Shown here piece by piece: positions 4,958-60,523 of a stretch of 64,000 nucleotides of DNA; position 1 is the first letter of the stretch; each line of letters starts with the position of its first letter. The position numbers and the translations under genes were made by a program. A model generated the notes under the pieces. It was not told the DNA's origin, did no database searches, and saw nothing but the letters and a program-made list of their open reading frames with translations. Origin of the DNA: Micromonospora peucetia (lineage in GTDB: Bacteria > Actinomycetota > Actinomycetes > Mycobacteriales > Micromonosporaceae); NCBI RefSeq assembly GCF_900091625.1, contig NZ_FMIC01000002.1, forward strand, positions 620,001 to 684,000. The letters are read 5' to 3'.

Positions 4958-6439
4958 TCACCGGTCGACGAGAGAGCCCACGCCGATGGGCTCCACGTCC
5001 ACCGGGAGATCCGGCAGCACCCCGGCGAGAGCCTCGACCTTCGACCACGTCATGGTCACCTGGTCGAGGTCGTTGTCCCCCAGTGGGACGCCCAGTTCGC
5101 CGAACGCCCGGGCCAGCCGCTCCCGCCGGACGGGGTCGACGCTGTCGGCGGGCGCCTCGGGGGCGCAGACGGGCGCCAGGTCCGGGACGACGTCCAGTTT
5201 CGGCTCGCGCTCGTGCCAGCCCGTGCGCCGCTGGTAGACGTCGGCGACGGCGGCCAGCTCGAAGTCGCGGCCGGGGGCGGCGGCCAGTTGCAGCGACAGC
5301 GGCAACCCGTCGCCGTCGGCGCCCATCGGCAGCGCCAGCGCGGGGAAGCCGACCGCGCTCCAGATGCTGGGCAGGAAGGAGATCGTCTGGAGGCTGGCCT
5401 GGTCGTCGTAGCGTGGGGCGGCGGACGGCCAGGCGGGCGTGGCGATGACGTCGACGTCCCGCAACCGGGCCCGCAGGGCGTCGGCGCCCCACCCGCGCAC
5501 CCGCTGGGCCCGCAGGTAGGTCTCCGCCGGGAGCACGCCACCGAGCGCGACGTTCCACCGGAACGGTCGTCCGTAGTCGGCCCAGCGTGCCCGCAACTGC
5601 GCCCCGTGCACCTCGAACGCCTCGACCAGCATCGTCACGAGCTGCGCGGCGAAGAGCGGGAACGCCTCGTCGAACGGCACGTCGACGACCTCGGCTCCGG
5701 CGGCCCGCAGCTCGTCGAGCGCGGCCTCGAAGGCGGCGGCGGTCTCGTCGGTCAGCGCGGCGGCATACCGCACGAGGTCTCCCGGGACGCCGACGCGTAC
5801 GCCCGTGAGGTCGGCGAGCGGCGGCCGGGACAGCTCGGCGGGCCGGTCCGCCATGACGGCGAGCAGCCGCGCACACTCCCTGGCCGTACGCGCCAGCGGA
5901 CCCGCCGTCTCCACCGACCGCGCCAGCGGGCGGACGCCGGCCGCCGGCAGGAGACCCTGCGTCGGCTTCAGCCCGGTCACGCCGCACAGCGCGGCCGGGA
6001 TCCGGATGCTGCCGTTGCTGTCGGTGCCGACACCCGCGTCGAAGAACCCGGCGGGGATGCCGTTGGCGCTGCCGCAGCTCGACCCGCCGGTCCACCGGTG
6101 GGGGTCCCACGGGTTGCGGGGCACCGGGAAGGTCGCGTCCGGGTCCGGCCGGGACAGCGCGTGCTCGGCCATCGTGGTCTTGCCCACGATCGTCGCGCCC
6201 GCGGCGCGCAGCCGCGCCACCACCGTCGCGTCACGGTCGGCCCACCAGCTCGCGTCGTGCACGACGCTCTGGCAGGTGCTCGGCGCTCCGGCGACGGCGA
6301 CGGCGTCCTTGACGCCGATCAGCGTGCCGCGCAGCGGCCCGTCCGGGCCTGGGTCGTCGATCGGGAAGCGGTGCAGGAAGGTGCCGAGCATCGGCGCGAG
6401 CCGGTCGGCCCGCTCGGCTGCGGCGGCGAGGCGGTCCAT
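4958..6439 (-). CDS. Amidase-signature family hydrolase
   Basis: A 493-residue amidase. The Ser-cisSer-Lys triad is readable: K44 in GVKD, cis-Ser S120 in GGSSCGSANG and nucleophile S144 in GTDSNGSIRIPAALCG. Length and motif order fit the amidase-signature family, which hydrolyses carboxamides and some N-acyl or ester substrates in the cytoplasm. Its ATG at 6439 follows the stop of the small VCBS-like gene by one base, so it is translationally coupled and shares the promoter region that also serves the NRPS arm in the other direction. That places it in the biosynthetic regulon. Possible jobs are releasing a protecting acyl group, hydrolysing an asparagine-type amide in the product, or self-resistance; the sequence does not decide. 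Confidence 0.9.
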   Translation of the reverse strand: MDRLAAAAERADRLAPMLGTFLHRFPIDDPGPDGPLRGTLIGVKDAVAVAGAPSTCQSVVHDASWWADRDATVVARLRAAGATIVGKTTMAEHALSRPDPDATFPVPRNPWDPHRWTGGSSCGSANGIPAGFFDAGVGTDSNGSIRIPAALCGVTGLKPTQGLLPAAGVRPLARSVETAGPLARTARECARLLAVMADRPAELSRPPLADLTGVRVGVPGDLVRYAAALTDETAAAFEAALDELRAAGAEVVDVPFDEAFPLFAAQLVTMLVEAFEVHGAQLRARWADYGRPFRWNVALGGVLPAETYLRAQRVRGWGADALRARLRDVDVIATPAWPSAAPRYDDQASLQTISFLPSIWSAVGFPALALPMGADGDGLPLSLQLAAAPGRDFELAAVADVYQRRTGWHEREPKLDVVPDLAPVCAPEAPADSVDPVRRERLARAFGELGVPLGDNDLDQVTMTWSKVEALAGVLPDLPVDVEPIGVGSLVDR

Positions 6440-6440
6440 G

Positions 6441-6650
6441 TCAGCTCACCGCCGGCTGGTCGGCCGCGACGGTCTTTGGCGCGGACCGGTCACCAGCCGG
6501 TTTCGGTTGCCCGTACGTTCCGGTGCCACAGAAGAAGTCACGGTGCGGAAAGGCGAACAACTCGGCCGCGCTGTCGTCCCGGACCACGACTTCCGTCTTG
6601 CCGTCACCGTTCGACGAATGGCGCTGATCTTTCCCCTTCAGGCGTGCCAC
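6441..6650 (-). CDS. Truncated VCBS/FG-GAP repeat protein, paralogue of the gene at 19121-20005
   Basis: A 69-residue product from a GTG at 6650 with GGGGAGGT six bases upstream. Its first 40 residues (VARLKGKD, then NGDGKTEVVVRD, then ELFAFPH) line up with the N-terminus of the 294-residue protein at 19121-20005 (VARMKGNG, NGDGRMDILVRD, ELLVFPH), after which the repeats are missing. Only one calcium-loop-like motif remains. Start codon, ribosome site and upstream leader are conserved between the copies, so this is a 3'-truncated duplicate. A longer frame to 6785 would run into the conserved leader and is rejected. It may now serve only as a translational lead-in to the amidase. Confidence 0.72.
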   Translation of the reverse strand: MARLKGKDQRHSSNGDGKTEVVVRDDSAAELFAFPHRDFFCGTGTYGQPKPAGDRSAPKTVAADQPAVS

Positions 6651-6728
6651 GAACACCTCCCCGCACGGGCCGCGGAATGCGCAGCCGAGGACCACGACAG
6701 GTCCGACGATGACGGGTACGGACTTCGC

Positions 6729-6756: not shown

Positions 6757-6880
6757 ACCCCGGAATAAAGCACTGCGGACGCCAATTCTCGCGGCTGCGG
6801 CCCCGGAATTCCTGGCTCACCGATCCACGGCGCTGCTAAATACTATTCGCATACCCGCACCGATCTAAATGGGGAAATCA

Positions 6881-7828
6881 ATGAGCAACGCAATCGGGAA
6901 CCTCGTGGCCACACCCACGCTCGGTGCGGTGGACCCACAGGCGATCGACGTGTCGGATGTGCACAAGAGATACGGTGACGTGCGCGCCGTCAACGGCGTC
7001 GACCTGCGGATCGCCCCCGGCGAGGTGGTCGCGCTGCTCGGGCCCAACGGCGCGGGCAAGTCCACGCTCGTCGACCTGATCCTCGGGCTCGCCCGACCCG
7101 ACCGGGGCGAGATCCGCATCTTCGGGCACACCCCGCGGGAGGCCGTCACCCGGGGCGTCATCGGGGCGATGCTCCAGGACGGTGCGCTGCTCGACGACGT
7201 GTCGATCCGCGAGCTGCTCACGATGGCGGCGTCGCTGCACGCCGCCCCGCTCCCGGTCGACGAGGTGCTGCGCCGCGCCGGTCTCACCGACATCGCCGAC
7301 CGTCGGGGCCGGCTCTCCGGCGGTCAGCGCCAGCGGCTGCGCCTGGCGATGACCCTCGTCTCCGACCCCAGGCTGCTGGTGCTGGACGAGCCGACGGTGG
7401 CGATGGACGTCGAGTCCCGCCACATCTTCTGGGCCTCCATGCGGGAGTTCACCGCCACCGGACGCACCGTGGTGTTCGCCTCCCACTACCTGGAGGAGGC
7501 CGAGGAGTTCGCCGACCGGGTGGTGCTCGTCCGCGCCGGGGTGGTCATCGCCGACGGCACGGTCGCCGAGATCCGCTCCGTGGTGGCCGGCCGGTCGTTG
7601 TCCGCCACCGTCCCGGGCGCGACGGTCGACCAGCTGCGCCTGCTGCCCGGCGTGAAGACCGCCGAGTCCCGCGGCAACCGCGTCGAACTCGTCTGCTCCG
7701 ACTCCGACGTCGCCGCCCGGGAGCTGTTCGCCCGCTACCCGGGGGCGTACGACGTCGAGATCGGCGCCCTCGGCCTGGAACAGGCGTTCCTGGCCCTCAC
7801 CTCCACGGAAAACGAGGCCGCCCGATGA
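6881..7828 (+). CDS. ABC exporter ATPase (DrrA-like) of the NRPS/PKS locus
   Basis: A 315-residue ATPase. Walker A is GPNGAGKSTLVD, the signature LSGGQRQRLRLA, Walker B LLVLDEPTVAMD and the switch histidine lies in FASHYLEEAEE. The ATG at 6881 is preferred over 6869 because GGGGA precedes it at normal spacing, while 6869 has no ribosome site. It overlaps the following permease by ATGA and heads the rightward operon through the oxygenase at 15301. As the first gene of a biosynthetic operon it is a good candidate for export of, and resistance to, the product. Confidence 0.92.
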   Translation: MSNAIGNLVATPTLGAVDPQAIDVSDVHKRYGDVRAVNGVDLRIAPGEVVALLGPNGAGKSTLVDLILGLARPDRGEIRIFGHTPREAVTRGVIGAMLQDGALLDDVSIRELLTMAASLHAAPLPVDEVLRRAGLTDIADRRGRLSGGQRQRLRLAMTLVSDPRLLVLDEPTVAMDVESRHIFWASMREFTATGRTVVFASHYLEEAEEFADRVVLVRAGVVIADGTVAEIRSVVAGRSLSATVPGATVDQLRLLPGVKTAESRGNRVELVCSDSDVAARELFARYPGAYDVEIGALGLEQAFLALTSTENEAAR

Positions 7829-8562
7829 GCACCGGTTTCCTCACGCTCGAAGTGAAGCGGGTGATCCGGGCCCGCAAGTTCTGGATCGTCGCGTTCCTGT
7901 TCCCGACGCTGCTCTACCTCATGCAGGCCAACCTGTTCCAGGGCGAGATCGTCGAGGGCACCGGCATCAACTTCAGCGAGCACCTGCTGGGCGGTCTCGC
8001 CGCCTTCGGGGCGCTCTTCGTCGCGCTGAACGTCGGCACCAGGGTGGCGATCGAGCGGTCGACCGGGTGGCAGCGCCAACTGCGCATCACCCCGTTGTCG
8101 CCGACCTCCTACCTGGCCGCGAAGCTGGCCGCGGCGATGGTCGTGGCCCTGCCGGCGATCACGGCGGTCGCGCTCACCGGCGCGCTGCTGGAGGGCGTCC
8201 GGCTGCCGCTGGGCGGCTGGCTCCAGCTGGTGCTCGGAATCTGGCTCGGCACGCTGCCGTTCGCGCTGCTGGGCGTCTTCATCGGCCAGGTCGCCACGGC
8301 CGAGAGCGTGCAGGTCCTCACGTCCGTCTCGCACATGCTGCTCGGGGTGCTCGGCGGCGCGCTGTTCCCGTCGGTCGCGTTCCCCGAGTGGCTCCAGGCG
8401 GTGTCCGCGGTCATGCCGAGCCACTGGTTGGCCGAGATCGGCCACAGCCCGTTCGAGGACAACTCCCGGCTCGCGCTCGCGGCACTGGTGCTCGCCGGGT
8501 GGACCGTCGTGCTCGGCGCCGCCGTGACCCTGCGCTACCTACGGGACAGCGCCCGCGTCTGA
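7825..8562 (+). CDS. ABC-2 type exporter permease of the NRPS/PKS locus
   Basis: A 245-residue permease with about six hydrophobic segments and a conserved ABC-2 region. Its ATG overlaps the ATPase stop (ATGA), giving coupled translation of the two exporter subunits. It is slightly shorter than the permease at 3035-3871 and not closely similar in sequence, so the two exporters are not recent duplicates. About 80 bases separate it from the thioesterase gene. Confidence 0.9.
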   Translation: MSTGFLTLEVKRVIRARKFWIVAFLFPTLLYLMQANLFQGEIVEGTGINFSEHLLGGLAAFGALFVALNVGTRVAIERSTGWQRQLRITPLSPTSYLAAKLAAAMVVALPAITAVALTGALLEGVRLPLGGWLQLVLGIWLGTLPFALLGVFIGQVATAESVQVLTSVSHMLLGVLGGALFPSVAFPEWLQAVSAVMPSHWLAEIGHSPFEDNSRLALAALVLAGWTVVLGAAVTLRYLRDSARV

Positions 8563-8641
8563 GCGCCCGCGACCGGGCGGACGGCACCCCGCACTTTCCT
8601 GCACGACGAACGTACGCATCGCTACGACGAGGGATCCCATC

Positions 8642-9463
8642 GTGAAGAAGAACTCCTGGCAGATACTGCGCAAGGGCGGGCCGGGCGGCCTCACGCTCAC
8701 CGTCGACTTCACCAGCACCGGCCGTACCCAGGCGTGCTTCCGGGACCTGGTTCCCCTGTTGAGCGCGCCCGGCGAGATCTGGGAGACCGTGGCACCCGCC
8801 GCCGGCGCCGAGGACACCATGTCCGGCGCCGACTACGTCGAGCGGTGGGCGAAGGGCGTCCGTCGGCGTGAGCGCACCGTCGACACCGTGATCGGCTACT
8901 GCGTGGGCGCGGTGTTCGCCGCCCCCCTCGCGTCCCGGCTGGCCGAGGCGCAGGACGAGGCGCCCAGGCTGGTCCTGCTGGATCCGGAGCTGCCGAACAT
9001 CGTCGGGCTGTACCGCGACTTCCACGCCGCCGCGGACGCGCTGCGCAGCATCCTCTCCCCGGAGGAGATCGCCGCGTTCCACGCGGACGGCCAGGCGGTC
9101 CAGGAGAGGTACGGGCTCGACGACCTCGCCCTCATCGGTCCCGCGCTCGCCGGGATCTTCCGCGACGCGATCGACGTCGCGGGCCGTCGGCTCGGGCTGG
9201 ACGACGACGTCCGGGGCGAACTGGGCGGCAGCTTCGCGTCGTTCGTCGGCTACCTGCGGGCGGCGGCGGAGATCGACCCGACCCCGCGGTGGGAGACGGC
9301 GACGGCCATCACCTCCGCGCACTCGACCCAGCGGGACCAGGTCTTCGGGCGCAACATCCGGCTCGACGTCGACCATGACCAGATGCTGCGCCACCCCGAC
9401 GTCGCGGCGGCGGTCTCCGGCCTGATGACCGGTGCGGACGCCGGCCTGCGGATCGCGGGGTAG
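8642..9463 (+). CDS. Free-standing thioesterase-like alpha/beta hydrolase with a cysteine nucleophile
   Basis: A 273-residue protein starting at a GTG (8642) with GAGGGA upstream. The nucleophile elbow reads GYCVGA (residues 85-90), so the usual serine of GxSxG is a cysteine (C87). D114 in LVLLDPE and H245 in DVDHDQM fit the rest of a hydrolase triad by position. The adjacent A-PCP and C-A-PCP genes suggest it acts on carrier-bound intermediates, either releasing the product or editing. Cysteine thioesterases are known to favour transfer to internal nucleophiles, as in obafluorin beta-lactone and sulfazecin beta-lactam formation. Since neither the NRPS nor the last PKS module has a TE domain, this is the only release candidate seen. 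Family assignment is firm at the fold level; the reaction is inference. Confidence 0.72.
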   Translation: MKKNSWQILRKGGPGGLTLTVDFTSTGRTQACFRDLVPLLSAPGEIWETVAPAAGAEDTMSGADYVERWAKGVRRRERTVDTVIGYCVGAVFAAPLASRLAEAQDEAPRLVLLDPELPNIVGLYRDFHAAADALRSILSPEEIAAFHADGQAVQERYGLDDLALIGPALAGIFRDAIDVAGRRLGLDDDVRGELGGSFASFVGYLRAAAEIDPTPRWETATAITSAHSTQRDQVFGRNIRLDVDHDQMLRHPDVAAAVSGLMTGADAGLRIAG

Positions 9464-9467
9464 CGCG

Positions 9468-11258
9468 GTGGCACCGAGCCGGGCGGGCCACGAGCCCGCG
9501 CTCTTCACCGACCTGTTCGCGGAGCAGGTACGGCGCACCCCGGACGCCACCGCCGTCGTGTGGGGCGAGCACCGCAGGACGTACGCCGAGCTGGACGCCG
9601 AGGCGAACCGGCTCGCACACCGGCTGGTGTCGCTCGGCGCGGGCCCGGAGCGGCTCGTCGCGATCGGGACCCGGTCCGCGCACCTGGTGGTGGCCGCGCT
9701 CGCCACCCTCAAGGCCGGGGCGGCCTACCTGCCGCTGGACCTGAGCCACCCGCCGCAGCGGCTGGAGCACATGCTCACCGACGCGCGGCCCATGTTGCTG
9801 CTGACCACCGCCGACGACCAGCACTCGGTGCCGGCGTCCGGCCCGCCACGGGTCCTGCTCGACCGGCCGGACGCGTACGCCGGCCAGCCGGCCACCGACG
9901 TCACCGACGCCGACCGGCTCGCCCCGCTGCGACCCGCCAACACCGCGTACGTCATCTACACCTCCGGCTCCACCGGCAACCCGAAGGGCGTGGTGATCGA
10001 GCACCGCCAGCTCGGCACGTACCTGCGCCACGTCGTGCGGGCCTACCCGGGCGTACGCGGGCGGGCGCTGCTGCACTCCTCGTTCGCGTTCGACCTGACG
10101 GTCACCGCGTTCTACGCGCCACTGATGACGGGCGGCTGCGTGCACGTCGGCGCCCTGGAGGAGATGGGCACGCCCGCCGCGGGGCCGGCCGGGCAGCAGC
10201 GGCCCACGTTCGTCAAGGTGACGCCGTCGCACATCCCGCTGCTCACCGCGCTGCCCGCCGAGGCGTCCCCGACCGGGGAGCTGATGGCCGGCGGCGAACT
10301 GCTGCTCGGCGAGACCGTCGACGCCTGGCGACGCCGGCACCCCGGGGCGCGGGTGATCAACGAGTACGGTCCGACGGAGACGACCGTCGGGTGCAGCACG
10401 GTGGTCATCGAGCCCGACCAGCCGGTGCCGCCGGGGCCGCTGCCCATCGGCCAGCCCATGCCCGACGTGCGCTTCCACGTGCTGGACGGGGACCTGCGCC
10501 CGGTCGCACCCGGCGAGATCGGCGAACTGCACATCGCCGGGGCCCAGCTGGCCCGGGGCTACCTGGGCAGGCCGGGGCTGACCGCCGAGCGTTTCCTGCC
10601 CGACCCGTACGGGCCGCCCGGCTCGCGCATGTACCGCTCCGGCGACCGGGTCCGGCCCACCGAGGACGGCGAGTACGAGTTCTGCGGGCGGGTCGACAAC
10701 CAGGCCAAGATCCGCGGCTACCGCATCGAGCTCGGGGAGATCGAGGCGGCGCTGCTGCGCCGCCCGGAGGTGCGGCACGCGGCGGCGGTGATCCGCACGG
10801 ACGCCCCGGAGGTCAAACAGCTCGTCGCGTACGTCGTGCCCGCGGCTGACACGAGGGTCGATCCGCAGCAGCTGCGCAAGGACCTCGCGGAGACCCTGCC
10901 CGACTACATGGTGCCGAGCGCCGTGGTCAGCCTCGCGGCGCTGCCGCTGACCGTCAACGGCAAGCTCGACCCGGCGGCCCTGCCGGCGCCGGAGGCCGCG
11001 GCGACCCCGGGCGGACGGGCCCCGGCCGACGAGTTGCAGGCCCTGCTGTGCGAACTCTTCGCCACCTACACGGCGGTCTCCTCGATGGGCGTCGACGACG
11101 ACTTCTTCGTCCGGGGCGGCACCAGCCTCGGCGCCGCCCAACTGGTCAACGAGGCACGCCGGCGCGGGCTCACGCTGTCGCTGCGCGACGTGCTGGAAAA
11201 CCGGACCGTGGCGCGACTCGCCGAGGTGTGCGCCGACACCGACCGAGAGGACGAGTGA
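9468..11258 (+). CDS. NRPS adenylation-PCP didomain, predicted to activate L-asparagine
   Basis: A 596-residue A-PCP protein; GTG start at 9468, four bases after the thioesterase stop. The A domain is intact: A3 YTSGSTGNPKG near residue 163, A5 NEYGPTE, A7 YRSGDR, A8 GRVDNQAKIRGYRIELGEIE, A10 NGKLD. Manual alignment to GrsA gives the pocket D-L-T-K-M-G-E-V-G-K, one residue from the asparagine code DLTKLGEVGK. The carrier domain has GGTSLGA with the phosphopantetheine serine. No condensation or TE domain is present. With an AsnO-like hydroxylase in the same operon, L-Asn or 3-hydroxy-Asn is the likely substrate. It could load its own PCP and possibly the PCP of the next protein, whose A domain looks dead. 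Confidence 0.88.
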   Translation: MAPSRAGHEPALFTDLFAEQVRRTPDATAVVWGEHRRTYAELDAEANRLAHRLVSLGAGPERLVAIGTRSAHLVVAALATLKAGAAYLPLDLSHPPQRLEHMLTDARPMLLLTTADDQHSVPASGPPRVLLDRPDAYAGQPATDVTDADRLAPLRPANTAYVIYTSGSTGNPKGVVIEHRQLGTYLRHVVRAYPGVRGRALLHSSFAFDLTVTAFYAPLMTGGCVHVGALEEMGTPAAGPAGQQRPTFVKVTPSHIPLLTALPAEASPTGELMAGGELLLGETVDAWRRRHPGARVINEYGPTETTVGCSTVVIEPDQPVPPGPLPIGQPMPDVRFHVLDGDLRPVAPGEIGELHIAGAQLARGYLGRPGLTAERFLPDPYGPPGSRMYRSGDRVRPTEDGEYEFCGRVDNQAKIRGYRIELGEIEAALLRRPEVRHAAAVIRTDAPEVKQLVAYVVPAADTRVDPQQLRKDLAETLPDYMVPSAVVSLAALPLTVNGKLDPAALPAPEAAATPGGRAPADELQALLCELFATYTAVSSMGVDDDFFVRGGTSLGAAQLVNEARRRGLTLSLRDVLENRTVARLAEVCADTDREDE

Positions 11259-15763: not shown

Positions 15764-16543
15764 ATGAAATTCTCAGTCCTCGGCACCACCGAAGTCACCC
15801 ACCACAACCACCACCTCGAACTCGGCGGAATCAGACAACGCGCAATCCTCGGCTACCTCATCCTCAACGCCAACAAAGTCGTCGCCACCAGCCAAATCCT
15901 CAACGCCATGTGGAACGGCAACCCACCCCCCACCGCCCGCAAAATGGTCCAGAACGCCGTCTCCGGCATCCGCCGCATCCTCACCACCAACACCGACCCC
16001 ACCACCACCCCCCACCTCCGCACCCACCCACCCGGCTACCAACTCCGCATCGACACCGAAACCATCGACCTCTACCAATTCCGCCGACTCGTCCGCGAAG
16101 GACGCCACGCCACCACCAACAACAACCACACCCACGCCGCCCACACCCTCCACCAAGCACTCAACCTCTGGCGCGGACGAGCCCTCGCCGACCTCGTCGA
16201 AACCGGCACCAACTGGTCAGAACTCGCCGCCATCGAAGACGAACGACTCTCCGCACTCGAAGACCGCCTCGACGCCGAACTCCACTGCGGCAAACACCGC
16301 GAAATCACCCCCGAACTCGAAATACTCACCACCACCGAACCCCTACGCGAACGCCTCTGCCACCAATTCATGCTCGCCCTCTACCGCAGCGGACGCCAAG
16401 TCGACGCCCTCCGCGTCTACCGACGCACCCGCGAAGCCCTCATCGACAACCTCGGCCTCGAACCCGGCCGCCACCTCCAAGAACTCCAACAACGCATCCT
16501 CGAACACGACGCAAAAATCCAAACCCCCGTACTCATCGGCTGA
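15764..16543 (+). CDS. Small SARP-family transcriptional activator
   Basis: A 259-residue regulator with an OmpR-like winged-helix domain (about 1-95, beginning MKFSVLGTTEV) and a bacterial transcriptional activation (BTAD) domain (about 100-245, with GRALADL and FMLALYRSGRQ motifs). It lacks the NB-ARC/TPR half of AfsR, so it is a short SARP like ActII-ORF4. Start at 15764 with GGAG eight bases upstream. Base composition is strikingly unlike its neighbours: on the coding strand G is scarce and codons such as GAA, CAA, AAA, ATC and ACC abound. A similar bias occurs inside PKS A (54560-55400). It lies between the NRPS operon and the P450 and probably activates this locus. Confidence 0.92.
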   Translation: MKFSVLGTTEVTHHNHHLELGGIRQRAILGYLILNANKVVATSQILNAMWNGNPPPTARKMVQNAVSGIRRILTTNTDPTTTPHLRTHPPGYQLRIDTETIDLYQFRRLVREGRHATTNNNHTHAAHTLHQALNLWRGRALADLVETGTNWSELAAIEDERLSALEDRLDAELHCGKHREITPELEILTTTEPLRERLCHQFMLALYRSGRQVDALRVYRRTREALIDNLGLEPGRHLQELQQRILEHDAKIQTPVLIG

Positions 16544-18385: not shown

Positions 18386-18464
18386 CCAGCCGAGCGGGCG
18401 GGGCGGGGCGGTCGATCGGCTCGTCGTCGGGAGGCCAACGGCCTCACCGCGGACGCTGTCGAGC

Positions 18465-21381: not shown

Positions 21382-30627
<9,246 letters not shown>

Positions 30628-41501: not shown

Positions 41502-41523
41502 TAGGGTCGCCCTCCTCGCACTG

Positions 41524-50500: not shown

Positions 50501-51894
50501 AGCACCCAGGGCACCGGTCCGGTCGACGCGACGCCGGGCTGCGCGGTCTCCCGCTCGGGCGGCTCCTCCAGGATCACGTGGGCGTTGGTGCCGCTCACGC
50601 CGAACGACGAGACACCGGCGCGGTACGGCTCGGCGCCCCTGGGCCAGGCGACCGCCTCGGTCAGCAGGTCGACCGAGCCCTCGGTCCAGTCGACCTGGTC
50701 GCTCGGGGCGTCCACGTGCAGCGTCTTCGGCAGCAGCCGGTGCCGCATGGCGAGCACCATCTTGATGATGCCGCCGACGCCGGCGGCGGCCTGGGTGTGG
50801 CCGATGTTCGACTTGATCGAGCCGAGCCGGAGCGGCCGTTCCCGGTCCTGGCCGTAGGTGGCGAGGAGGGCCTGCGCCTCGATCGGGTCGCCCAGGGTGG
50901 TGCCGGTGCCGTGCGCCTCGACCACGTCGATCTGGTTGGCCGACAGCCGCGCGTTGGCCAGCGCCGCCTGGATCACCCGCTGTTGCGCCGGCCCGTTCGG
51001 CGCGGTCAGCCCGTTGGACGCGCCGTCCTGGTTGACCGCCGACCCTCGGACGACGGCGAGCACCGGGTGTCCGTTGCGGCGGGCGTCGGCGAGCCGCTCC
51101 ACGATCAGCATGCCGACGCCCTCGGCGAAGCCGGTGCCGTCGGCGGCGGCGGCGAAGGACTTGCAGCGGCCGTCCGGCGACAGCCCGCGCTGCTTGGAGA
51201 ACGCGACGTAGGTCTCCGGGGTCGCCATCACGGTGACGCCGCCGGCCAGCGCGAGCGAGCACTCGCCGTTGCGCAGGGCCTGCACGGCCAGGTGCAGGGC
51301 GACCAGCGACGACGAGCACGCGGTGTCGACGGTGACGGCCGGCCCTTCCAGGCCGAGGGTGTACGCCACCCGGCCGGACGCGATCGCGCCGGTGGCGTTG
51401 TTCTCCGGGTAGTCGTGGTACATGACGCCGGCGAAGACGCCCGTGTCGCTGCCGCGCAGCCCGGTCGGGTCGATGCCCGCGTTCTCGAAGGCCTCCCACG
51501 AGATCTCCAGCAGCAGCCGCTGCTGCGGGTCCATGGTCAACGCCTCGCGTGGGCTGATCCCGAAGAACTCCGGGTCGAACTGGGCCGCGTCGTGCAGGAA
51601 GCCACCCTCCCGGGTGTACGACCGGCCCGGCGTACCGGGCGTGGGGTCGTAGAGCTCGGCGACGTTCCAGCCACGGTCGGTGGGGAAGGCGGTGATCCCG
51701 TCCCCGCCGGCGGCGACCAGGTCCCACAGGTCGTCCGGGGTCCGCACCCCGCCCGGGTAGCGGCAGGCCATGCCCACGATGGCGATCGGCTCGCGCAGCG
51801 TCGAGTTCAGCTTGCGGTTCTGCTCCCGCAGCCACTCGTTCTCCTTGAGCGAGGCCCGCAGCGCGGTGACGAGCTTCTCCTCCGAGTTGGCCAT
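41524..51894 (-). CDS. Type I polyketide synthase B (modules 2 and 3)
   Basis: A 3456-residue PKS starting four bases after PKS A. Docking coil (1-33), then module 2: KS (35-460, C193), AT with GHSQGE and YASH (methylmalonyl, 547-845), DH (about 905-1180, H943), KR with VMADA and QGAYAAAN (B-type), ACP near 1655. Module 3: KS (1717-2140), AT with GHSIGE and HAFH (malonyl), DH, KR with VVDDA and QGNYAAGN (B-type), ACP near 3370, then a helical docking tail. Both DH domains keep histidine and the distal LFDVALH or LLDAVLH aspartate, but the HxxxGxxxxP glycine is aspartate in each ([10 protein letters not shown] and [10 protein letters not shown]). If they are active, two double bonds result. 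Confidence 0.94.
44832..45231 (-). repeat. AT-domain tract of module 3, near-identical to module 7
   Basis: Partner of 23435-23835. The highest identity is at 44977-45231, with only a handful of differences across about 255 bases. The adjacent KS-AT linker and the end of the AT domain diverge, so the exchange covers the front half of the AT domain. Confidence 0.8.
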
Positions 51895-51898
51895 GTGG

Positions 51899-54800
51899 TC
51901 AGCTCCCCGCTTCCGTCGTCGCTTCACCGAGGTCGGCGAGCGCCATGCTGATCAGTGCGTCGGCGTCCATGTCGTCGATGGATCCGGCCGGTGCGTCGAC
52001 CGGTGCGTCGGCGGCGACCCGGACGCCGCCCAGTTCGAGCAGGCTGTCCATCAGGCCGGCGTCCCGGAGCCGGCCGAGGGGGATGGCGAGCAGGATGCGG
52101 CGGACCTCCTCCTCGGGCAGCCCGGCGTCGGTGCCGGTGTCCGGTACGAGCCGCTCGTACAGCAGCTCGGCGACCGCGCGGGTGTTCGGCCGGTCGAAGG
52201 TCAGGGTCGCGGGCAGCCGCAGGCCGGTCACGGCGTTGAGCTGGTTGCGCAGTTCCAGCGCGGCGAGCGAGTCGAAACCCAGCTCGGTGAAGGCGCGGCC
52301 GGGGTCGACGGCGTCGGGGTCGCGGTGCCCGAGCACCGCCGCGACGTTCGTGCGGACCAGGTCCAGCAGCAGGTCCGTGCGCTCCGGCCCGGAGAGGCCG
52401 GCCAGGCGTGCGGCGAGGTCGTTGCCGGTGGACGCCGCCCGCCGGGTCCGGGCGCGGACCAGGCCGCGGTAGATCGGGCCGTCGACCACGCCGAGGTCGA
52501 GCCCGACGGGCACCAGGACCGGCGCGGCGCAGCTGATCGCGGCGTCGAAAAGGCGCAGGCCCTCGTCGACCGGCAGGGCACGCACGCCCGACCGGGCCAG
52601 CCGCTGCCGCTCCGCACCGGTCAGCTCGCCCGCCATCCCGCCGTCCCACATGCCCCACGCCAGGGACTGCCCGGCCAGGCCGGCAGCGCGACGGCGCACC
52701 ACCAGGGCGTCCAGGAACGCGTTGGCCGCGGAGTACGCCGCCTGACCCACGTTGCCGAACACGCCCGCAGCCGACGAGAACACCACGAACGCCGACAGCC
52801 CCATCCCGGCCGTCAACTCGTGCAGGTGCCACGCCGCGTCCACCTTCGGCGCCAGCACCCGGTCCAGCCGCTGTGCCGACAACGACGCCAGCAGGCCGTC
52901 GTCCACCACACCGGCGACGTGTACCACCGCCGACAGGTCACGGCCGGCGACCAGTGCCGCCACGGCGTCCCGGTCGGCCACGTCGCAGGCCGCCCAGCGC
53001 GCCGACGCGCCCGACGACGCCAGCTCCGCCGCCAGTTCGACGGCACCCGGCGCGGCCTCCCCACGGCGGGACACCAGCAGCAGGTCGCGGACCCCGTACG
53101 CCGCCACCAGGTGCCGGGCCACCACCGCGCCCAACGCGCCGGACGCACCGGACACCAGCACCGTCCCGGCGCCGAAGTCCGCGGGTACCGGGTCGTCGGC
53201 GCGTACCCGGGCCAGCCGGGCGGCGTGCGGGACGCCGTCGCGGACCACGAGCTGGGGTTCGTCGTCGGCCAGCACGACGTCGCCGTCGACCAGCACGACG
53301 CGGTCGGGGTGCTCGGCCTGGACCGAGCGGACGAACCCCCACACGGCGGCGCCCGCGAGGTCGGTGACGTCCTCGCCGGGCAGGGCCACCGCGCCCCGGG
53401 TACGCACGACGATCCGGGCGCCGGTGGGTTCGGCCAGCCACGAGGTGAGTTCGTCGAGTACGCGGTGCAGGGCGGCGCGGACACCGGCGGGGGTGTCCGC
53501 CGAGGCGGGGTCGATCGGGAACGTGGTCGTGTCGAGCACCGGCACGTCCCCCGCCGGCTCGCCGGCGGCCGGCACGGGGGTCCAGGTCAGCTCGTACAGC
53601 GAGTCGTGGTGGGTCGGCCGGGCGTCGAGCGCGCCGACGGGTCGGGTCTCCAGCCTGCCCACCGACACCACGGGGGCGCCCGTGCCGTCGGTCGCGGTGA
53701 TCGTCCAGCCGGAGACGACGGGCACGATCCGGACCCGCAGGGCGGTGGCGTGGGTGGCGTGCAGCACCACCTGCTGCCACGAGAACGGGAGCACGGTGCT
53801 CCCCGTACCGGCCTGGTCGGCCAGCAGCGGGGCGTGCAGCGCCGCATCCAGCAGGGCGGGGTGCAGCGCGAACCGCTCATCCACCTCGGGAAGGGTGACC
53901 TCGGCGAAGAACTCGTCGCCGCGTTCCCACACCGCCGTGACGCCCCGGAACGCCCGCCCGTACTCGTAGCCCCGGTCCGAGAGCCGGTCGTAGGCGTCGG
54001 TCAGGTCGACCGGCCGGGCGCCCGCGGGGGGCCACTCCAGCACGGTGTCCGGCGCGGTGACCGGGTCCGCGGTGACCAGCCCGGTGGCGTGCGCCGTCCA
54101 GGCCTCGGTGTACTCGCCGCGCGAGTGGATCTCGACCGTGCGGCGGCCCGCCTCGTCCGGCTCGCCGACCCGCAGCCGCAGTTGCACCGCGCCGTCCTCG
54201 GGCAGCACCACCGGGGCCAGGGTGGTCAGTTCCTCCAGCACCGGGCAGCCGACCGCGTCCGCGGCGTGGACCGCGAGTTCGACGAGCGCCGCGCCGGGAA
54301 CGAGCACGGCGCCCGCGACGACGTGGTCCGCGAGCCACGGGTGGGTGCCGGTCGACAACCGTCCGGTGTAGACGACGCCGTCGAAGTCGGGCAGTGCGAC
54401 GGCCGCGCCGAGCAGGGGGTGCTCGGTGTCGGCGAGCCCGAGTCGGCCGGCCGCTCCCGTCGCGGTCGCGTTCTCCGCCCAGTACCGCTGGTGTTCGAAG
54501 GGGTAGGTGGGCAGGTCGGTGCTCCGGGCGCCGGCGAACCAGGTGGGCCAGTCGACCGGGATCCCGATGGTGTGCAGTGCGGCGACGGCTTTGGTGAGGG
54601 TGTGGGTTTCGGGTTGTCCTCGGCGGGTGGTGGCGATGGCGGTGGTGGTGTCGCCGGTGGTGGTGGCCAGGACGGTGTCGGGGCCGATTTCGAGGTAGGT
54701 GGTGATGTGGTGGTCGGTGCTGAGCTTCTGGACGGCGTCGTGGAAGCGGACGGTGTGGCGGACCTGGGTTACCCAGTAGTCGGGGGTGGGGTCGAGGGGT

Positions 54801-57094
54801 TGGCCGGTGACGGTGGAGGTGACGGGGATGGTGGGTTTGTGGTGGGTGATGGAGGCGGCGACGGCGCGGTAGTCGTCGAGCATCGGGTCCATCAGGTGGG
54901 AGTGGAAGGCGTGGGAGACGGTGAGGCGTCTGGTGCGGTGCCCGGCGTCGGCGAGTCTTTGGGCGGCGGTCAGGGTGGCGGCTTCGTCGCCGGAGATGAC
55001 GAGGTTGGTGGGGGTGTTGATGGCGGCGAGGCCGACGCGGTCGCTGAGGTGGGGGGTGACTTGTTCTTCGGTGGCTTCGATGGCGACCATGGCGCCGCCG
55101 GTGGGTAGGGCTTGCATGAGTCGGGCGCGGGCGGCGACGAGGGTGGCGGCGTCGGTGAGGTCCCAGACGCCGGCGATGTGGGCGGCGGTGAGTTCGCCGA
55201 TGGAGTGGCCGGCGACGGCGTGCGGGTGGATGCCCCAGGATTCGAGGAGTCGGTAGAGGGCGACTTCGAAGGCGAACAGGGCGGGTTGGGTGTAGCCGGT
55301 CTGGTGCAGTCCGTCGGTGTCGATGACTTCCCGCAGTGGCCGGTCCAGATGCTTGTCCAACGCGGTGCACACTTCGTCGAAGGTGGTGGCGAAGACGGGG
55401 TACGCGGCGGCGAGTTCGGTGCCCATACCCAGGCGCTGCGCACCCTGACCCGTGAACAGGAAGGCGAGCCGGCCGCCGGGAGCCGCCGCGGTCGGCTGCA
55501 CTCCGGCCTCCAGCGCGCGTACCAGCTCCTCGGTGTCGCGGCCCACCACGGCGGCGCGATGCTCGAACGCGGTACGCCCGACGGCCAGCGTGAAGCCGAC
55601 GGCCAGGGTGAACCCGAAGTCCTCGGGGTCACGGCCCGCCACCGCGCCGGCCAGCCGCGCGGCCTGTGCCCGCACCGCCTCCGGCGTCCGCCCGGAGAGG
55701 ATCCACGGGATCACCGGCGGTGCGACCACGGGCACCGGCTCGGGGGACTCCGCCGGCTCGGGCTCCTCCAGCACCACGTGTGCGTTGGTGCCGCTGATCC
55801 CGAACGACGACACGGCGGCCCGGCGCGGACGGTCGCCGGCGGGCCACGCCACCGGCTCGGTCAGCAGCGACACCGCCCCCGCCGACCAGTCCACCTTCGA
55901 AGACGGCTCGTCGACGTGCAGGGTGCGCGGCAGCAGCCCGTGCCGCAGCGCGCCCACCATCTTGATCAGGCCGGCGACGCCGGCCGCGGCCTGGGTGTGG
56001 CCGATGTTCGACTTGATCGAGCCCAGCCAGAGCGGGCGGTCCCGGTCCTGGCCGTAGGTGGCGAGGATGGCCTGGGCCTCGATCGGGTCACCCAGGGTGG
56101 TGCCGGTGCCGTGCGCCTCGACCACGTCGACCTGGCTCGCCGACAGCCGCGCGTTGGCCAGCGCGGCCCGGATCACCCGCTGCTGCGCCGGCCCGTTCGG
56201 GGCGGTCAGCCCGTTGGAGGCGCCGTCGGAGTTCACCGCCGTGCCCCGGACCACCGCCAGCACCCGGTGACCGTTGCGCCGCGCGTCCGACAGCCGCTCC
56301 ACCACGAGTACGCCGACGCCCTCGGACCAGCCGGTGCCGTCGGCGGCGGAGGCGAAGGACTTGCAGCGGCCGTCCGGCGACAGCCCGCGCTGCCGGGAGA
56401 ACTCGACGAACGTCTCCGGGGTCGCCATCACGGTCACGCCACCGGCCAGCGCCAGCGTGCACTCGCCGTTGCGCAGCGCCTGCCCGGCGAGGTGCAGGGC
56501 GACCAGCGACGACGAGCACGCCGTGTCGACGGTGACCGCCGGCCCCTCCAGGCCGAACGTGTACGCCACCCGGCCCGAGGCGATCGAGCCCGTGGCGCTG
56601 TTGCCCGCGTAGTCGTGGTACATCATCCCGGCGAACACACCGGTGGCACTGCCCCGCAGTCCGGCCGGGTCGATGGCCGCGTTCTCCAGCGCCTCCCACG
56701 AGGTCTCCAGCAGCAGCCGCTGCTGCGGATCCGTCGTCAACGCCTCGCGCGGGCTGATCCCGAAGAACTCGGCGTCGAAGTCCGCGGCGCCGGGCAGGAA
56801 GCCGCCCTCCCGGGTGTACGACCGGCCGGGGGTGCCGGGGGTCGGGTCGTACAGCTCCCCCACGTTCCAGCCCCGGTCGGTGGGGAAGCCACCGATCCCG
56901 TCGCGTCCGGTGGCGACCAGGTCCCACAGGTCCTCCGGCGTACGCACGCCGCCCGGATACCGGCATGCCATGCCGACGATCGCGAGTGGCTCATGGGCGG
57001 CCTCCTCCGCGTCACGCAGCTTCCGCCGCGTCTCGCGCAGCTCCGCTGTCGTCCGCCTGAGGTAGTCGAGCAGCTTTTCCTCGTTGTCGGGCAT
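51899..57094 (-). CDS. Type I polyketide synthase A (module 1, no loading domain)
   Basis: A 1731-residue single-module PKS; start at 57094 because [14 protein letters not shown] is the usual N-terminal docking coil. KS (35-460) is a normal extender KS with C193, H328 and H366, not a KSQ. AT (541-850) has GHSIGE (S631) and HAFHS, so malonyl. DH (885-1165) has H924 in [13 protein letters not shown] and D1083. KR (1308-1490) has VVDDG (B-type) and Y1454. ACP has LGFDSL (S1609), then a docking tail. There is no loading AT, CoA ligase or KSQ, so the starter must come from another protein. The AT region carries foreign base composition (54560-55400), and a hexapeptide GFTLAV is duplicated before it. 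Confidence 0.94.
54560..55400 (-). other. Compositional island covering the module 1 AT domain
   Basis: Within an otherwise G- and C-rich PKS gene, the coding strand here becomes poor in G and rich in A and C, giving Thr-, His- and Pro-rich codon runs (residues about 565-845). Edges coincide with the AT domain and its following linker. KS, DH, KR and ACP on both sides have the normal composition of the locus. The bias is the same kind as in the SARP gene at 15764-16543. The simplest reading is replacement of the AT domain by recombination with DNA of another source. Confidence 0.72.
55579..55614 (-). repeat. 18-bp in-frame tandem duplication in the KS-AT linker of module 1
   Basis: Two 18-bp copies (55579-55596 and 55597-55614) differ at two positions and encode FTLAVG twice in a row (about residues 495-506). 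Other modules have this segment once. It lies just upstream of the AT compositional island. Confidence 0.85.
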
Positions 57095-57261
57095 CGACGT
57101 CACTCCAAGAGCGGACCGGTGGGGGATCGGGTGACAGAGCGGGGATGCTCCGGTGCGTGCCACGCCGCCGGACGGGTCCGGCGGCGGGCACGGAGACGAG
57201 ACGGGTGCGGGTGTTCCCCGGCGGACGACCTTCGTGCCGGGGGCCCGCGGGTTCATCGCGG

Positions 57262-58830
57262 TCAGCTCACCCTGCGCTCGTGGCCCTGCCAGAACCGCTC
57301 ACGCAGCTCGCGGCGCAGGATCTTGCCGCTGGGGTTGCGGGGCACCCGGTCGATGAACTCGTAGTGCAGCGGCTGCTTGAAGGCGGCGAGCCTGCCGCGC
57401 AGGTGCAGGGCCAGGTCGCGTTCGGTGAGCTGCTGGCCCTCCACCGGCACCACGAACGCGTGCACGGCCTCGCCCCAGCGCTCGTCCGGCACACCCACGA
57501 CCGCCGACTCGGCGACCAACGGGTGGCGGCCGATGACGTGCTCGACCTCCGCCGGGTAGACGTTCTCCCCCGCCACGATGATCATGTCCTTGATCCGGTC
57601 GCGGATGAACAGGTAGCCGTCCTCGTCCAGCACTCCGGCGTCCCCGGTCACGACCCAGCCGTCGACCAGCGTCCTCGCCGTGGCCTCCGGCAGGTTCCAG
57701 TACTCCACCATCGCCGCCGGCGTACGCAGCCAGACCTCGCCGACCTCGCCGGGTGGCAGCGGCTCGCCCTGGCCGTCGGCGACCTTGACCTCGAAGCCCG
57801 GGTAGGGGCGTCCCGCCGCCTGCATCCTGCCGCTGTCCGGCCGGTGGTCGGCCGGGGGCAGGCAGATGGCCGTGTTGCCGGTCTCGGTCAGGCCGTAGAT
57901 CTGGGCGAACTCGCAGCCGAAGCCCTCGACGCAGCGGGCGAGCAGCCCGGCCGAGATGGGCGCGCCGCCGTAGACCACCTTGCGCAGCGAGGTGAAGTCG
58001 TCGCTGGAGACGCCGGGTTCGGCCAGCAGCAGCCGCAGCATCGCGGGCACCAGGCAGGCGGTGGTGACCCGCAGCGTCCTGATCAGCTCGACCGCGCCCG
58101 CCGTGGTGAACTCGCGCATCACCACGTTCGTGACGCCCGACACGAAGCCCTGCGTCGCCCACCAGAGGCCGCCGATGTGGAATCCGGCCATCCCGACGAG
58201 GCTGACGTCGCCCTCGCGCCAGTCGATCCAGTCCAGTTCCGCCGAGGCGAGCGCCGCGCGTACCGCGAAGAAGCTGCGGTGGGCGAGGACGACGCCCTTG
58301 GGCAGCCCCGTCGTGCCGCTGGTGTACATCTGCACCAGCGGCGTGTCGGGGGTGATCCTGGCCAGCACGTTGGCGTCCGGCTGCGCCGCCACCCAGGCCG
58401 CGAAGCCGGCACCGGCGGTGCCCGGCTCGTCGAGCCCGACCACCCGCTTCAGGGTCGGCAGTTCCGGCGCCAGCTTCTCGGCGGTGGCGGCCGAGTCGGA
58501 GTCGACGAACAGCAGGGCGGCGCCGGAGTCGCGCAGGATGTGTTCGACCTCGCCGGCAGCCAGCCGCCAGTTGATCGGCACCAGCACCACACCGGTCTTG
58601 GCGGCGCCGAAGAGCAGCTCGTAGTAGTGCTCGGACTCCTTGCCCAGGTAGGCGATGCGGTCGCCGGGGCGCAGGCCTGCCGCCTGAAGGCCACGCGCGA
58701 CCTGGTTGCTGACGCGGTGCAGGGTGGCGTAGTCGACGCGCCGGCCCTCGCAGACCACGGCGACGACGTCCGGCTGCTGGACGGCGTGCCTGCGCACCAC
58801 GTCGACGAGGGTGCGCAACTGAACAGTCAC
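57262..58830 (-). CDS. FadD-type acyl-CoA/acyl-ACP ligase, likely starter-unit activation
   Basis: A 522-residue AMP-forming ligase. Motifs: [48 protein letters not shown] and the catalytic lysine in [12 protein letters not shown] start at 58830 with GAGGAGG upstream. It belongs to the fatty-acyl ligase family rather than NRPS A domains and has no fused carrier. It lies directly after the FcoT-like gene and before PKS A, which lacks a loading domain, so its most likely job is to activate the carboxylic acid starter as a CoA or carrier thioester. The same ligase-plus-FcoT pairing occurs in isonitrile lipopeptide loci (ScoC/ScoD, FadD10/FcoT). No free-standing ACP is visible. Confidence 0.9.
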
Positions 58831-58866
58831 CGGGTCCTCCTCAGGGGACGTACGGGTGGGGGCGGC

Positions 58867-59439
58867 TCACGCCGCGTCGGCCTGGAAACGCATGCCGGGC
58901 GGGTTGACCAGCGCCATCCGCACCTCGCCCTCGGCGACGCCGCCCTGGGTGTCCCAGAAGCGCCACGGCATGTCGATGATCTGGACCGGCCGGCTGCGGT
59001 TGCGCTCGCTGAACTCGGCGAAGGACACCTCGCCGTGGAACGACGACGAGTCGATCGGCCGCCGGAACTTGCTGGTGAAGTTCGCGATGAGCATGTCCGG
59101 AAGCTGCTTGGCCCAGTAGTCGTCCATGGTCCACGCGGCCAGCGCGGGAACGGCCCGGTCCTGGACGCACTTGGCGATCAGGTAGTACATGAGCTGGTTG
59201 AAACAGATGTTCACCTCGACCGAGTTGAGGTGCCCTGTGTCGTCGATGTAGCACGGGTACGGAATGGCGAACTCACCCTCGGCGCTCGCCAGCCCGTTGG
59301 CGACGGTGACCGTCGCGGACTTCAGGTACTGGGTCCTCGGCCTCGCGTACGGGCGCAGCACGTCCGAAAGCAGTCCCGGGTCGTTGGCGAAAGTCGCACG
59401 CCCGATCGACACGCTGTTCTTCACCGGCGATGTGGTCAT
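58867..59439 (-). CDS. FcoT/CmiS1-like hot-dog enzyme (thioesterase or glycine Michael-addition type)
   Basis: A 190-residue protein; start at 59439 with AGGAGG upstream. It carries the hallmark segments of Mycobacterium FcoT (Rv0098): GHLNSVE (69-75), CFNQL (79-83), then SKFRRPI and FWDTQGGVAEGE. Family members are long-chain acyl thioesterases or, in isonitrile lipopeptide (ScoD) and cremimycin (CmiS1) biosynthesis, add glycine across an alpha,beta-unsaturated acyl thioester to give an N-carboxymethyl-beta-amino acid. Here it sits 36 bases before the acyl ligase and close to PKS A, so it probably makes or trims the starter unit. No CmiS2-like glycine oxidase or ScoE-like oxygenase is seen. 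Confidence 0.85.
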   Translation of the reverse strand: MTTSPVKNSVSIGRATFANDPGLLSDVLRPYARPRTQYLKSATVTVANGLASAEGEFAIPYPCYIDDTGHLNSVEVNICFNQLMYYLIAKCVQDRAVPALAAWTMDDYWAKQLPDMLIANFTSKFRRPIDSSSFHGEVSFAEFSERNRSRPVQIIDMPWRFWDTQGGVAEGEVRMALVNPPGMRFQADAA

Positions 59440-59494
59440 TGCTATTCCTCCTATGCGCACGAGTGCGAAATTGAAGGTAATCGCGGCCGGTCCA

Positions 59495-60523
59495 TCACCC
59501 GGTAACAGCGGAAGAACTCAGCCGACGCCCATGACGGACCCGACCGACGAGCCGGTCCAGCAGCATGTCGGAGGTGAGCGACAGATCGGCGAGAAGCGGG
59601 TCGGGCGACAACAGCGCCAGGTGCAGTGCCTGGATCCGCTCCGAGGGCTCGATGCCGAGCTCGCCCATCATCCGCCGCCGGAACCGCAGATAGACCTCCA
59701 GCGCGGCCGGCGTGCGACCGGACCGGTGCAGCGCGAGCATCAGCATCGTGTGCGCCGACTCGTGCAGCGGGTGCTCCACGACCAGCGACGCGAGCTCGGA
59801 GGTCGCCTCCCGGTGCCGGCCCAGGCACAGGTCGGCGTCGATCCTGGTGGTGTACGCGTAGAACCGCCGCTCCTCCAGCCGCGCCGCCTGGGCGCGCAGC
59901 TGCGGGCCCCACTGGCCCTGGTGCACGACGTTGCCGCGCCACAGCGCCAGCGACCGGCGCAGGTGCGCGCCGGCCTGCTCGTAGTCGCCCGCGTGCATCG
60001 CCGCGGTGCCCGCCGTGACCAGCTCGTCGAACTCGACGATGTCGAGCTGCTTCGGGTCCACCCGCAGCGTGTAGCCCCCGGAGCAGGTCAGCAGGACGTC
60101 CCGCGCGATGTCCTCGACGGACCCGCCGAGCACACCGCGGAACAGCTTGCGCACCTTGAACATGTACGTCTGAAGGGTGGCGTGGGCGGTGCGTGGTGCC
60201 CCCGAGCTCCACAGCTCCCGCACCAGCACCGACGCGCCGACCGGCTGGTTCGCGTTGAACAGCAACGCGGACAGGACCAGTCGCAGCTTCGGTGCGCTCG
60301 GGGCGATGTCGACCCCGCCGTGCCGGATGACCAGGGGGCCGAGCAGCTCGAAGCGCAGCCCGGCGAGCGGGTTTCCCGCCGGGTGCCGGGGCGGCACGGC
60401 AGGTGGCGGCTCGGTACGCCGGACCTCCGTCGCGGGGTCGGCCGCCGACTCCAGCAACGCGGCGAGGAGCGTCAGTTTCTCCTCGTTCGACATCGATCCC
60501 AGTTCCGCAAACTTGGTAACCAT
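59495..60523 (-). CDS. SARP-family regulator of the PKS operon
   Basis: A 342-residue SARP with a non-typical N-terminal extension of about 50 residues, an OmpR-type DNA-binding domain (about 55-150, with LRFELLGPLVIR and TLQTYMFKVRKLF), a BTAD domain (about 155-300) and a 40-residue tail. GAGG precedes the ATG at 60523; an internal start at 60493 is also possible. It is the first gene of the leftward arm, 55 bases before the FcoT-like gene, and divergent from the azole-peptide locus. Its composition is normal for the locus, unlike the second SARP at 15764-16543. It probably activates the PKS operon. Confidence 0.9.
   Translation of the reverse strand: MVTKFAELGSMSNEEKLTLLAALLESAADPATEVRRTEPPPAVPPRHPAGNPLAGLRFELLGPLVIRHGGVDIAPSAPKLRLVLSALLFNANQPVGASVLVRELWSSGAPRTAHATLQTYMFKVRKLFRGVLGGSVEDIARDVLLTCSGGYTLRVDPKQLDIVEFDELVTAGTAAMHAGDYEQAGAHLRRSLALWRGNVVHQGQWGPQLRAQAARLEERRFYAYTTRIDADLCLGRHREATSELASLVVEHPLHESAHTMLMLALHRSGRTPAALEVYLRFRRRMMGELGIEPSERIQALHLALLSPDPLLADLSLTSDMLLDRLVGRVRHGRRLSSSAVTG

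Follow-up and report, generated by a model that had tools for sequence, protein, structure and literature searches.

The polyketide synthase (PKS)-nonribosomal peptide synthetase (NRPS) chains of nocamycin, tirandamycin, and streptolydigin are released as tetramates by cyclases of the NcmC/TrdC/SlgL type, and the parts of the text consulted on these compounds mention no isonitrile genes; nocamycin uses a single glycine-coded C-A-PCP protein (condensation, adenylation, and peptidyl carrier protein domains). The bripiodionen (bpd) system, in the portion of its report consulted, combines an A-T and a C-A(silent)-T protein (T, thiolation) with an asparagine (Asn) unit and a free-standing NcmC-like Dieckmann cyclase, its PKS being short and primed by a branched acyl-CoA (PMC10956176). 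FcoT-family enzymes add glycine to enoyl thioesters in isonitrile and in β-amino-starter pathways, and in cremimycin (CmiS1/CmiS2) this Michael addition serves a PKS starter (review PMC11284099, consulted in part). Here we compare with these systems a locus at positions 4958–60523 of a window, a 64,000-nucleotide stretch of the Micromonospora peucetia genome (G000:C2:620001-684000; genome 7.37 Mb, contig C2 7.27 Mb). On balance, the locus encodes most of what is likely a nine-module PKS-NRPS line in which an isonitrile-started pentaene-ol chain would be closed on Asn as a tetramic acid.

Genes were checked by Pfam scans, and ketosynthase (KS) domains, modules, and motifs were read from the protein sequences. 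Seven clusters were compared: that of the window, those of four close Micromonospora genomes (Micromonospora sp. C31, which is G025, and G103, G136, and G151), that of a Saccharothrix metagenome-assembled genome (G081), and the divergent cluster of G173. tblastn was used beside a simple gene caller, and the ligase and AsnO homologue of G173, as well as the ScoE and ligase of G386b (see below), were found by tblastn only. All genes named by a first-pass annotation of this DNA are present at its positions, among them those for a P450, a VCBS protein, an AsnO-like oxygenase, FcoT, an amidase, a SARP regulator, and an AMP ligase, and its seven PKS modules correspond to seven KS domains on four minus-strand genes. 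For eleven genes (amidase, NcmC, A-PCP, C-A-PCP, AsnO, P450, VCBS, FMN_dh, ligase, FcoT, and ScoE), each of the other six clusters contains a homologue at ≥45% identity, which argues that their co-occurrence is not due to chance. The two arms of the locus travel together in 7/7 clusters, which supports a single pathway rather than the unrelated pathways that the first-pass annotation had offered as the alternative.

The release arm lies on the plus strand. The gene at 8642–9463, previously called a Cys thioesterase, instead encodes an NcmC/TrdC-type Dieckmann cyclase homologue. Its product has no match in the Pfam scan but matches NcmC over its full length (PDB 6e6t, E = 3.4e-44), with the Cys-Asp-His triad aligned. 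NcmC is its only PDB match at E < 0.001, and we therefore rejected the β-lactone or β-lactam former that a Cys nucleophile might suggest. The A-PCP (9432–11258) has the code D-L-T-K-L-A-E-V-G-K, identical in 7/7 clusters, which agrees at 9/10 positions with what we take to be the Asn code, as had been annotated. The C-A*-PCP (11261–14254; start codon chosen by us, the longest frame beginning at 11048) has an A domain that lacks the A3 motif and the A10 Lys (G-T for G-K), likewise in 7/7 clusters; on the usual meaning of these motifs the domain is dead, again as annotated. The last PKS module (module 9) has no ketoreductase (KR), leaving a β-keto group, and no C-terminal thioesterase (TE). Because an NcmC homologue is combined here with a bripiodionen-type split NRPS, a predicted tetramic acid end group built from the Asn-derived unit, one outcome already envisaged in the first reading, is strongly supported and, by homology, almost certain, and the tetramate half is of an already known kind. 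Relative to the bpd release arm, AsnO, the amidase, and the FMN oxidase are additions; indeed, the bpd gene table, as consulted, contains no AsnO, amidase, FMN oxidase, P450, VCBS, FcoT, or ScoE (PMC10956176).

The four PKS genes of the window run on the minus strand. PKS1 (51899–57103, with VTSM the probable start, as it is in C31; the longest frame reaches 57256) consists of a docking domain followed by module 3, KS-AT(malonyl)-DH-KR-ACP (AT, acyltransferase; DH, dehydratase; ACP, acyl carrier protein). PKS2 (41524–51927) carries module 4, KS-AT(methylmalonyl)-DH-KR-ACP, and module 5, KS-AT(malonyl)-DH-KR-ACP; PKS3 (30654–41537) carries module 6, KS-AT(malonyl)-KR-ACP, and module 7, KS-AT(methylmalonyl)-DH-ER-KR-ACP (ER, enoylreductase); and PKS4 (21382–30627) carries module 8, KS-AT(methylmalonyl)-DH-KR-ACP, and module 9, KS-AT(malonyl)-ACP. 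AT substrate types and module order were assigned from sequence motifs, using the established rules for malonyl versus methylmalonyl ATs. They agree with the chain predicted earlier for these seven modules, but the "triene-ol" drawn from it is incomplete, since two more DH-KR modules and a loading part reside in a further subunit, PKS0.

PKS1 opens with its docking domain, and the window contains no loading module. In C31, the gene after the P450 encodes PKS0, a 4325-residue protein with an AMP-ligase part, an ACP, and two DH-KR modules. PKS0 was found at E ≤ 1e-100 in 6/7 genomes searched, and the seventh, G173, has a homologue at 50–54% identity. It lies within the main cluster, following the P450, in C31, G103, and G151; in the Saccharothrix genome it shares contig C91 with FcoT and is truncated where the contig ends; and in G136 and the window genome it is distant from the main cluster, in the latter at C2:6404671-6417645 (6.40 Mb, 5.7 Mb along the contig). 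The window itself retains only four collinear fragments of this 13-kb gene at 17926–18401 on the plus strand (blastn, 80–90% to the C31 and distal copies and, in confirmation, 88–91% to G151), and the main cluster of G136 also lacks PKS0, with the P450 kept. Both distal copies are open frames. Pairwise dN/dS (the ratio of nonsynonymous to synonymous substitution rates, here by simple counting in high-GC genes with no branch-specific test) is 0.39–0.42 in comparisons that include a distal copy versus 0.39–0.40 between resident copies. A purely local seven-module reading is ruled out by the docking start of PKS1 without a loading part, and by the fit of PKS0. The C-terminal end of PKS0 resembles those of PKS2 (32/87) and PKS3 (23/82) more than that of PKS1 (16/77), and PKS2 and PKS3 are already partnered. 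PKS0 is well supported as the likely first subunit of the line, and would act here in trans from the distal locus; from its two extra DH-KR modules, the predicted chain is therefore a pentaene-ol rather than a triene-ol.

The distal block of the window genome (G000:C2:6398085-6419177; L042, L043) holds an A-PCP-R gene (R, reductase), a second ligase (87%), a P450 (88%), PKS0, a ferredoxin, and a VCBS gene (90%), and the equivalent distal block of G136 also has FcoT and P450 remnants. The PKS0 proteins of Saccharothrix and G103 have DTACSSS in KS1 and HAFH in AT1. In the four remaining proteins the KS1 motif is DTACSAS and AT1 gives no match to HAFH, a pattern that hints at a swapped module 1. 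Saccharothrix PKS1 seems one module longer than its Micromonospora counterparts (L039:1-7793, L028:2404-4041), although contig ends fall inside AT domains and make this uncertain. Between the ligase and PKS1, Saccharothrix has a carboxyltransferase gene (L028:972-2360) and G103 a gene of similar size (G103:C1:5063951-5065360).

FcoT and an AMP-forming ligase head the PKS genes in 7/7 clusters. The FcoT/ScoD/SAV606-type enzyme (58867–59460, minus strand) is the only FcoT in the genome and scores 192 bits against PF10862 (threshold 27). Its best PDB matches are 5wsx and 5wsy, which we take to be SAV606, a homologue of CmiS1. SAV606 is discussed as such in the consulted part of PMC11284099. The ligase (57262–58830, minus strand) is ScoC-like, with 62% identity to the ligase of an isonitrile lipopeptide locus. 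The ligase part of PKS0 lacks the A10 Lys in 6/6 full-type proteins and the free ligase keeps both A3 and A10, so that the free ligase is the likely loader of PKS0. The first-pass annotation had placed FcoT correctly as a starter enzyme but undersold its role, since a matching homologue of the isonitrile synthase ScoE lies beyond the region it described, at 76093–76974 in window numbering (~16 kb to the right of the locus, in L029). This protein scores 464.9 bits against NF049937 (cut-off 400) and matches ScoE in PDB at E = 1e-127. By alignment, with positions counted by us, it keeps 8/8 of the residues named in the consulted part of the ScoE literature: Tyr96, Tyr97, Tyr101, Arg157, Lys193, Arg195, His299, and Arg310 (PMC7949033). 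The locus thus shares with the ScoA-E isonitrile lipopeptide pathway a ScoE above the family cut-off, an FcoT that may be of the ScoD type, a ScoC-like ligase, and an ACP and NRPS nearby; it differs in having FcoT and the ligase in a modular PKS gene row, an NRPS that ends in a TE and not a reductase, and an FcoT below the ScoD equivalog cut-off. Among the options that we infer for the starter, an isonitrile appears the best.

The divergent G173 cluster bears on which genes belong to the line. Its 11 core genes are 45–70% identical to those of the window; ScoE (2529978-2530907) directly follows AsnO and the NRPS arm, and FcoT (match 2580109-2580597) adjoins the ligase (2578520-2580082), upstream of the P450 and PKS0. 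Across 99.5 kb (2500500-2600000), a ScoB-type ACP has no match at E ≤ 1e-6, a weak ACP-like match having E = 0.007 over 39 residues, and the only matches to an NRPS-TE query are the tetramate NRPS pair and genes of the ligase type. YcaO, SagB, a substrate-binding protein (SBP), the ACP, a hydrolase, and a P-type ATPase likewise have no match in the stretch searched, so that we regard these genes and the NRPS-TE as outside the core. Since all three of FcoT, the ligase, and ScoE lie in the tetramate cluster of G173, with no match to a ScoB-type ACP or a separate NRPS-TE, these enzymes most likely feed the PKS. The G173 homologue of PKS0 (2351 aa) has a ligase part whose C-terminal portion is absent, an ACP, and one module, and directly precedes a subunit with a PKS1-type docking start.

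The sequences themselves show the domain order, the homologies, the PKS0 relic, the intact distal PKS0, and the co-inheritance of the genes; from these we infer the following route, in all of its chemical steps. The ligase would load an enoic acid on a carrier, FcoT would add glycine across the double bond and release an N-carboxymethyl β-amino acid, and ScoE would convert this into a β-isocyano acid, which the ligase would load onto the ACP of PKS0. PKS0 would run modules 1–2 and hand the chain to PKS1, and PKS1–4 would run modules 3–9. The A-PCP would charge Asn, or β-hydroxy-Asn made by AsnO, and pass it to the C-A*-PCP, and the NcmC homologue would release the chain as a 3-acyl tetramate. 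Least certain is the tailoring: a CH(OH)-CONH2 side chain may be the target of the amidase and FMN oxidase, and oxidation of the polyene may fall to the P450 and ferredoxin. More tentatively, and somewhat short of probable, the product would be a single copper-related molecule in which two metal-binding heads, the isonitrile of a β-isocyano starter and the acyl tetramate, are joined through the polyene, its first subunit being supplied in trans after loss from the cluster.

Several observations weigh against this scheme. PKS0 is less constrained than PKS2 (dN/dS 0.39–0.42 versus 0.22–0.30), and pairwise values of this ratio do not single out the period since PKS0 moved. The distal PKS0 is closer to the C31 copy (92.9%) than the main cluster is (88.7% for PKS2), so that it may have been acquired together with a block of its own. 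The docking ends, being short, discriminate weakly, the N-terminal end of PKS1 matching those of PKS2, PKS4, and PKS3 at 16/33, 21/33, and 18/35 positions, respectively. FcoT scores 210 bits against the ScoD model NF049938, below the cut-off of 250, and may therefore be CmiS1-like or an FcoT of another kind. ScoE adjoins its own NRPS (C-A-PCP-TE in the window genome), ACP, and P-type ATPase in six clusters. In G173, the subunit after PKS0 has a methylmalonyl-type first AT and is not a simple PKS1 orthologue; furthermore, a PvcA-type isocyanide synthase and a TauD partner stand in its FcoT-PKS gene row (L050:16117-17900), which may point independently to isonitrile chemistry or may mean that the product or the isonitrile logic differs there. 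Finally, proximity of FcoT to a PKS is not in itself a sign of an isonitrile: in G300, a more distant genome, the two are neighbours, and the 52 kb read there gave no match to ScoE.

The alternative that survives best arises from the surroundings of ScoE. At 71940–80000 in window numbering (L029:7940-16000), an NRPS (C-A-PCP-TE), an ACP, ScoE, a hydrolase, and a P-type ATPase stand in a row, and in 6/7 clusters ScoE is accompanied by the NRPS-TE, ACP, binding protein, ABC ATPase, major facilitator superfamily (MFS) protein, hydrolase, and P-type ATPase, the last presumably of the copper type by its motif. The block looks like a chalkophore-type locus without its own FcoT and ligase. It is thus possible, if rather unlikely, that two pathways share genes, a copper-binding isonitrile peptide being made by the ligase, FcoT, and ScoE together with the NRPS-TE and ACP, while the tetramate starts from an ordinary acid. 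The single FcoT of the genome would fit such sharing, as would the grouping of ScoE, ACP, NRPS-TE, MFS, SBP, FecE, and P-type ATPase to the right of the window, reminiscent of G386a, an isonitrile lipopeptide-type locus with a C-A-PCP-R NRPS, FecE, SBP, ACP, ligase, FcoT, ScoE, and ATPase. However, FcoT and the ligase head the PKS genes in every cluster; FcoT, the ligase, and ScoE are part of the tetramate cluster in G173, where the stretch read shows neither this NRPS nor this ACP; and the NRPS here ends in a TE, not in the Sco-type reductase seen in G386a, the A-PCP-R at 6.398 Mb having no C domain. The right block may make a second isonitrile product, related to copper and drawing on the same starter, or it may decorate the same molecule.

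The distribution of FcoT and ScoE bears on a second alternative. FcoT occurs in 7/160 Micromonospora genomes and ScoE (E ≤ 1e-60) in the same seven, which share descent and represent fewer than seven independent cases; five have the window-type PKS, G173 has the divergent PKS, and G190 has a plain locus with FcoT adjoining ScoE. In a class-wide draw, FcoT was found in 10/394 genomes, and five FcoT loci were read in four of the nine others; NcmC and FMN_dh have no match in these five loci, all outside the genus. In G386b, G385, and G517, ScoE adjoins FcoT, a PKS (one module in G385 and G517), and a ligase with 51–61% identity to that of the window, and the ScoE and ligase at G386b slightly favour an isonitrile starter. 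In an FcoT tree of 13 rows, G173 joins the six full-type sequences with support of 92/89, G300 groups with two ScoE-bearing loci (100/98), and the root forks are weak (67/38). It is improbable that FcoT makes a β-amino acid starter, as CmiS1 does for cremimycin, with the FMN oxidase replacing CmiS2 in removing the glycine carbon unit and ScoE being unrelated. The SAV606-type PDB matches, the core status of the FMN oxidase, and the G300 locus would all suit such a starter, yet among the cluster proteins scanned no CmiS2-type FAD glycine oxidase, aminoacyl-protecting set, or macrolactam TE was recognized; FMN_dh in G173 adjoins the NcmC/NRPS arm, not FcoT; and ScoE is present in all seven FcoT-bearing Micromonospora genomes. 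Least probable is a decaying cluster whose remaining seven modules make nothing after the loss of PKS0, since, despite the PKS0 and VCBS relics in the window and the absence of PKS0 from the G136 main cluster, both the window genome and G136 keep an open distal PKS0 with dN/dS like that of resident copies, and the reading frames of the remaining core genes in the window are open. Outside the genus, the order ScoE-FcoT followed by PKS and ligase is seen at L120:8915-18761, L121:8800-19438, and L123:8832-18970, and the FcoT of G385 carries its own ACP.

If the isonitrile-started tetramate line is correct, FcoT/ScoE isonitrile chemistry would supply starters to a modular PKS, and the combination of FcoT, ScoE, and an NcmC-type cyclase would provide a genome-mining rule for isonitrile polyketides, whose products could in addition be chemically tagged. 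The locus would also be a natural case of an assembly line that is complete although its first subunit has moved, so that delimiting the cluster by gene adjacency leads to the wrong chain. Like the first-pass annotation, we recognized no known product: no isonitrile tetramate was found in the open-access literature searched, which lacks most subscription journals.

Among the tailoring genes, the AsnO-like Fe/2-oxoglutarate oxygenase (14306–15301, plus strand) is nearest to AsnO among solved structures, as proposed earlier (best PDB match 2og5, E = 5.8e-82, 279 bits versus 159 for the next), and has the H-x-E metal motif in the aligned block. The FMN-dependent 2-hydroxyacid oxidase family protein (20132–21328, minus strand), described before as altered, is not visibly so: the catalytic residues that align with those of a mandelate dehydrogenase (Tyr, Tyr, Asp, Lys, His, and Arg) are all present, and the one change is a Thr in place of the Asn beside the His. 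The amidase (PF01425; 4958–6439, minus strand; 58–95% identical in 6/6 other clusters) is a possible side-chain amide hydrolase. A route in which AsnO, the amidase, and the FMN oxidase would act in series on the tetramate side chain is attractive because β-hydroxy-Asn gives a 2-hydroxy amide and the family of the FMN oxidase is that of 2-hydroxyacid oxidases. The cytochrome P450 is at 16691–17902 (plus strand) and the ferredoxin at 18788–19033 (minus strand). The FG-GAP/VCBS protein (19121–20005, minus strand) has no signal peptide by eye and is modelled as a β-propeller (mean pLDDT 93); fold searches with this model return assorted propellers, which do not indicate a function. A relic of a second VCBS gene lies beside the amidase at 6474–6647, and an intact copy occupies that place in the Saccharothrix genome (L016:7168-8046).

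Between FcoT and the ScoE block, a YcaO cyclodehydratase with a TOMM (thiazole/oxazole-modified microcin) leader-binding domain (60717–63122, plus strand) and a SagB-type dehydrogenase (63165–64000, plus strand, running to 64634 outside the window; assigned by a scan of the C31 homologue, 91% identical) are conserved neighbours kept in 6/7 clusters. No precursor peptide for them was found at 59400–71500 among 64 small frames, 23 of them mainly outside called genes; 11 of these frames have matches in at least 3/5 clusters and appear to us to be non-coding matches or to lie opposite a gene that was not called. An ABC-2 exporter pair (6869–8562, plus strand; ATPase 6869–7828, permease 7825–8562) is kept in C31, Saccharothrix, and G173. 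SARP/BTAD regulator 1 is encoded at 59495–60523 (minus strand) and regulator 2 at 15764–16543 (plus strand). The latter lies in a stretch of strong negative GC skew (−0.13 to −0.16 at 14–18 kb) with codons that are C/A-rich by eye, and has matches of 62–88% in G136, G151, Saccharothrix, and G173 and of only 31–32% in C31 and G103. Elsewhere on the contig, G000:C2:6093882-6265189 contains 33 KS matches in ~170 kb, a separate and very large modular PKS locus.

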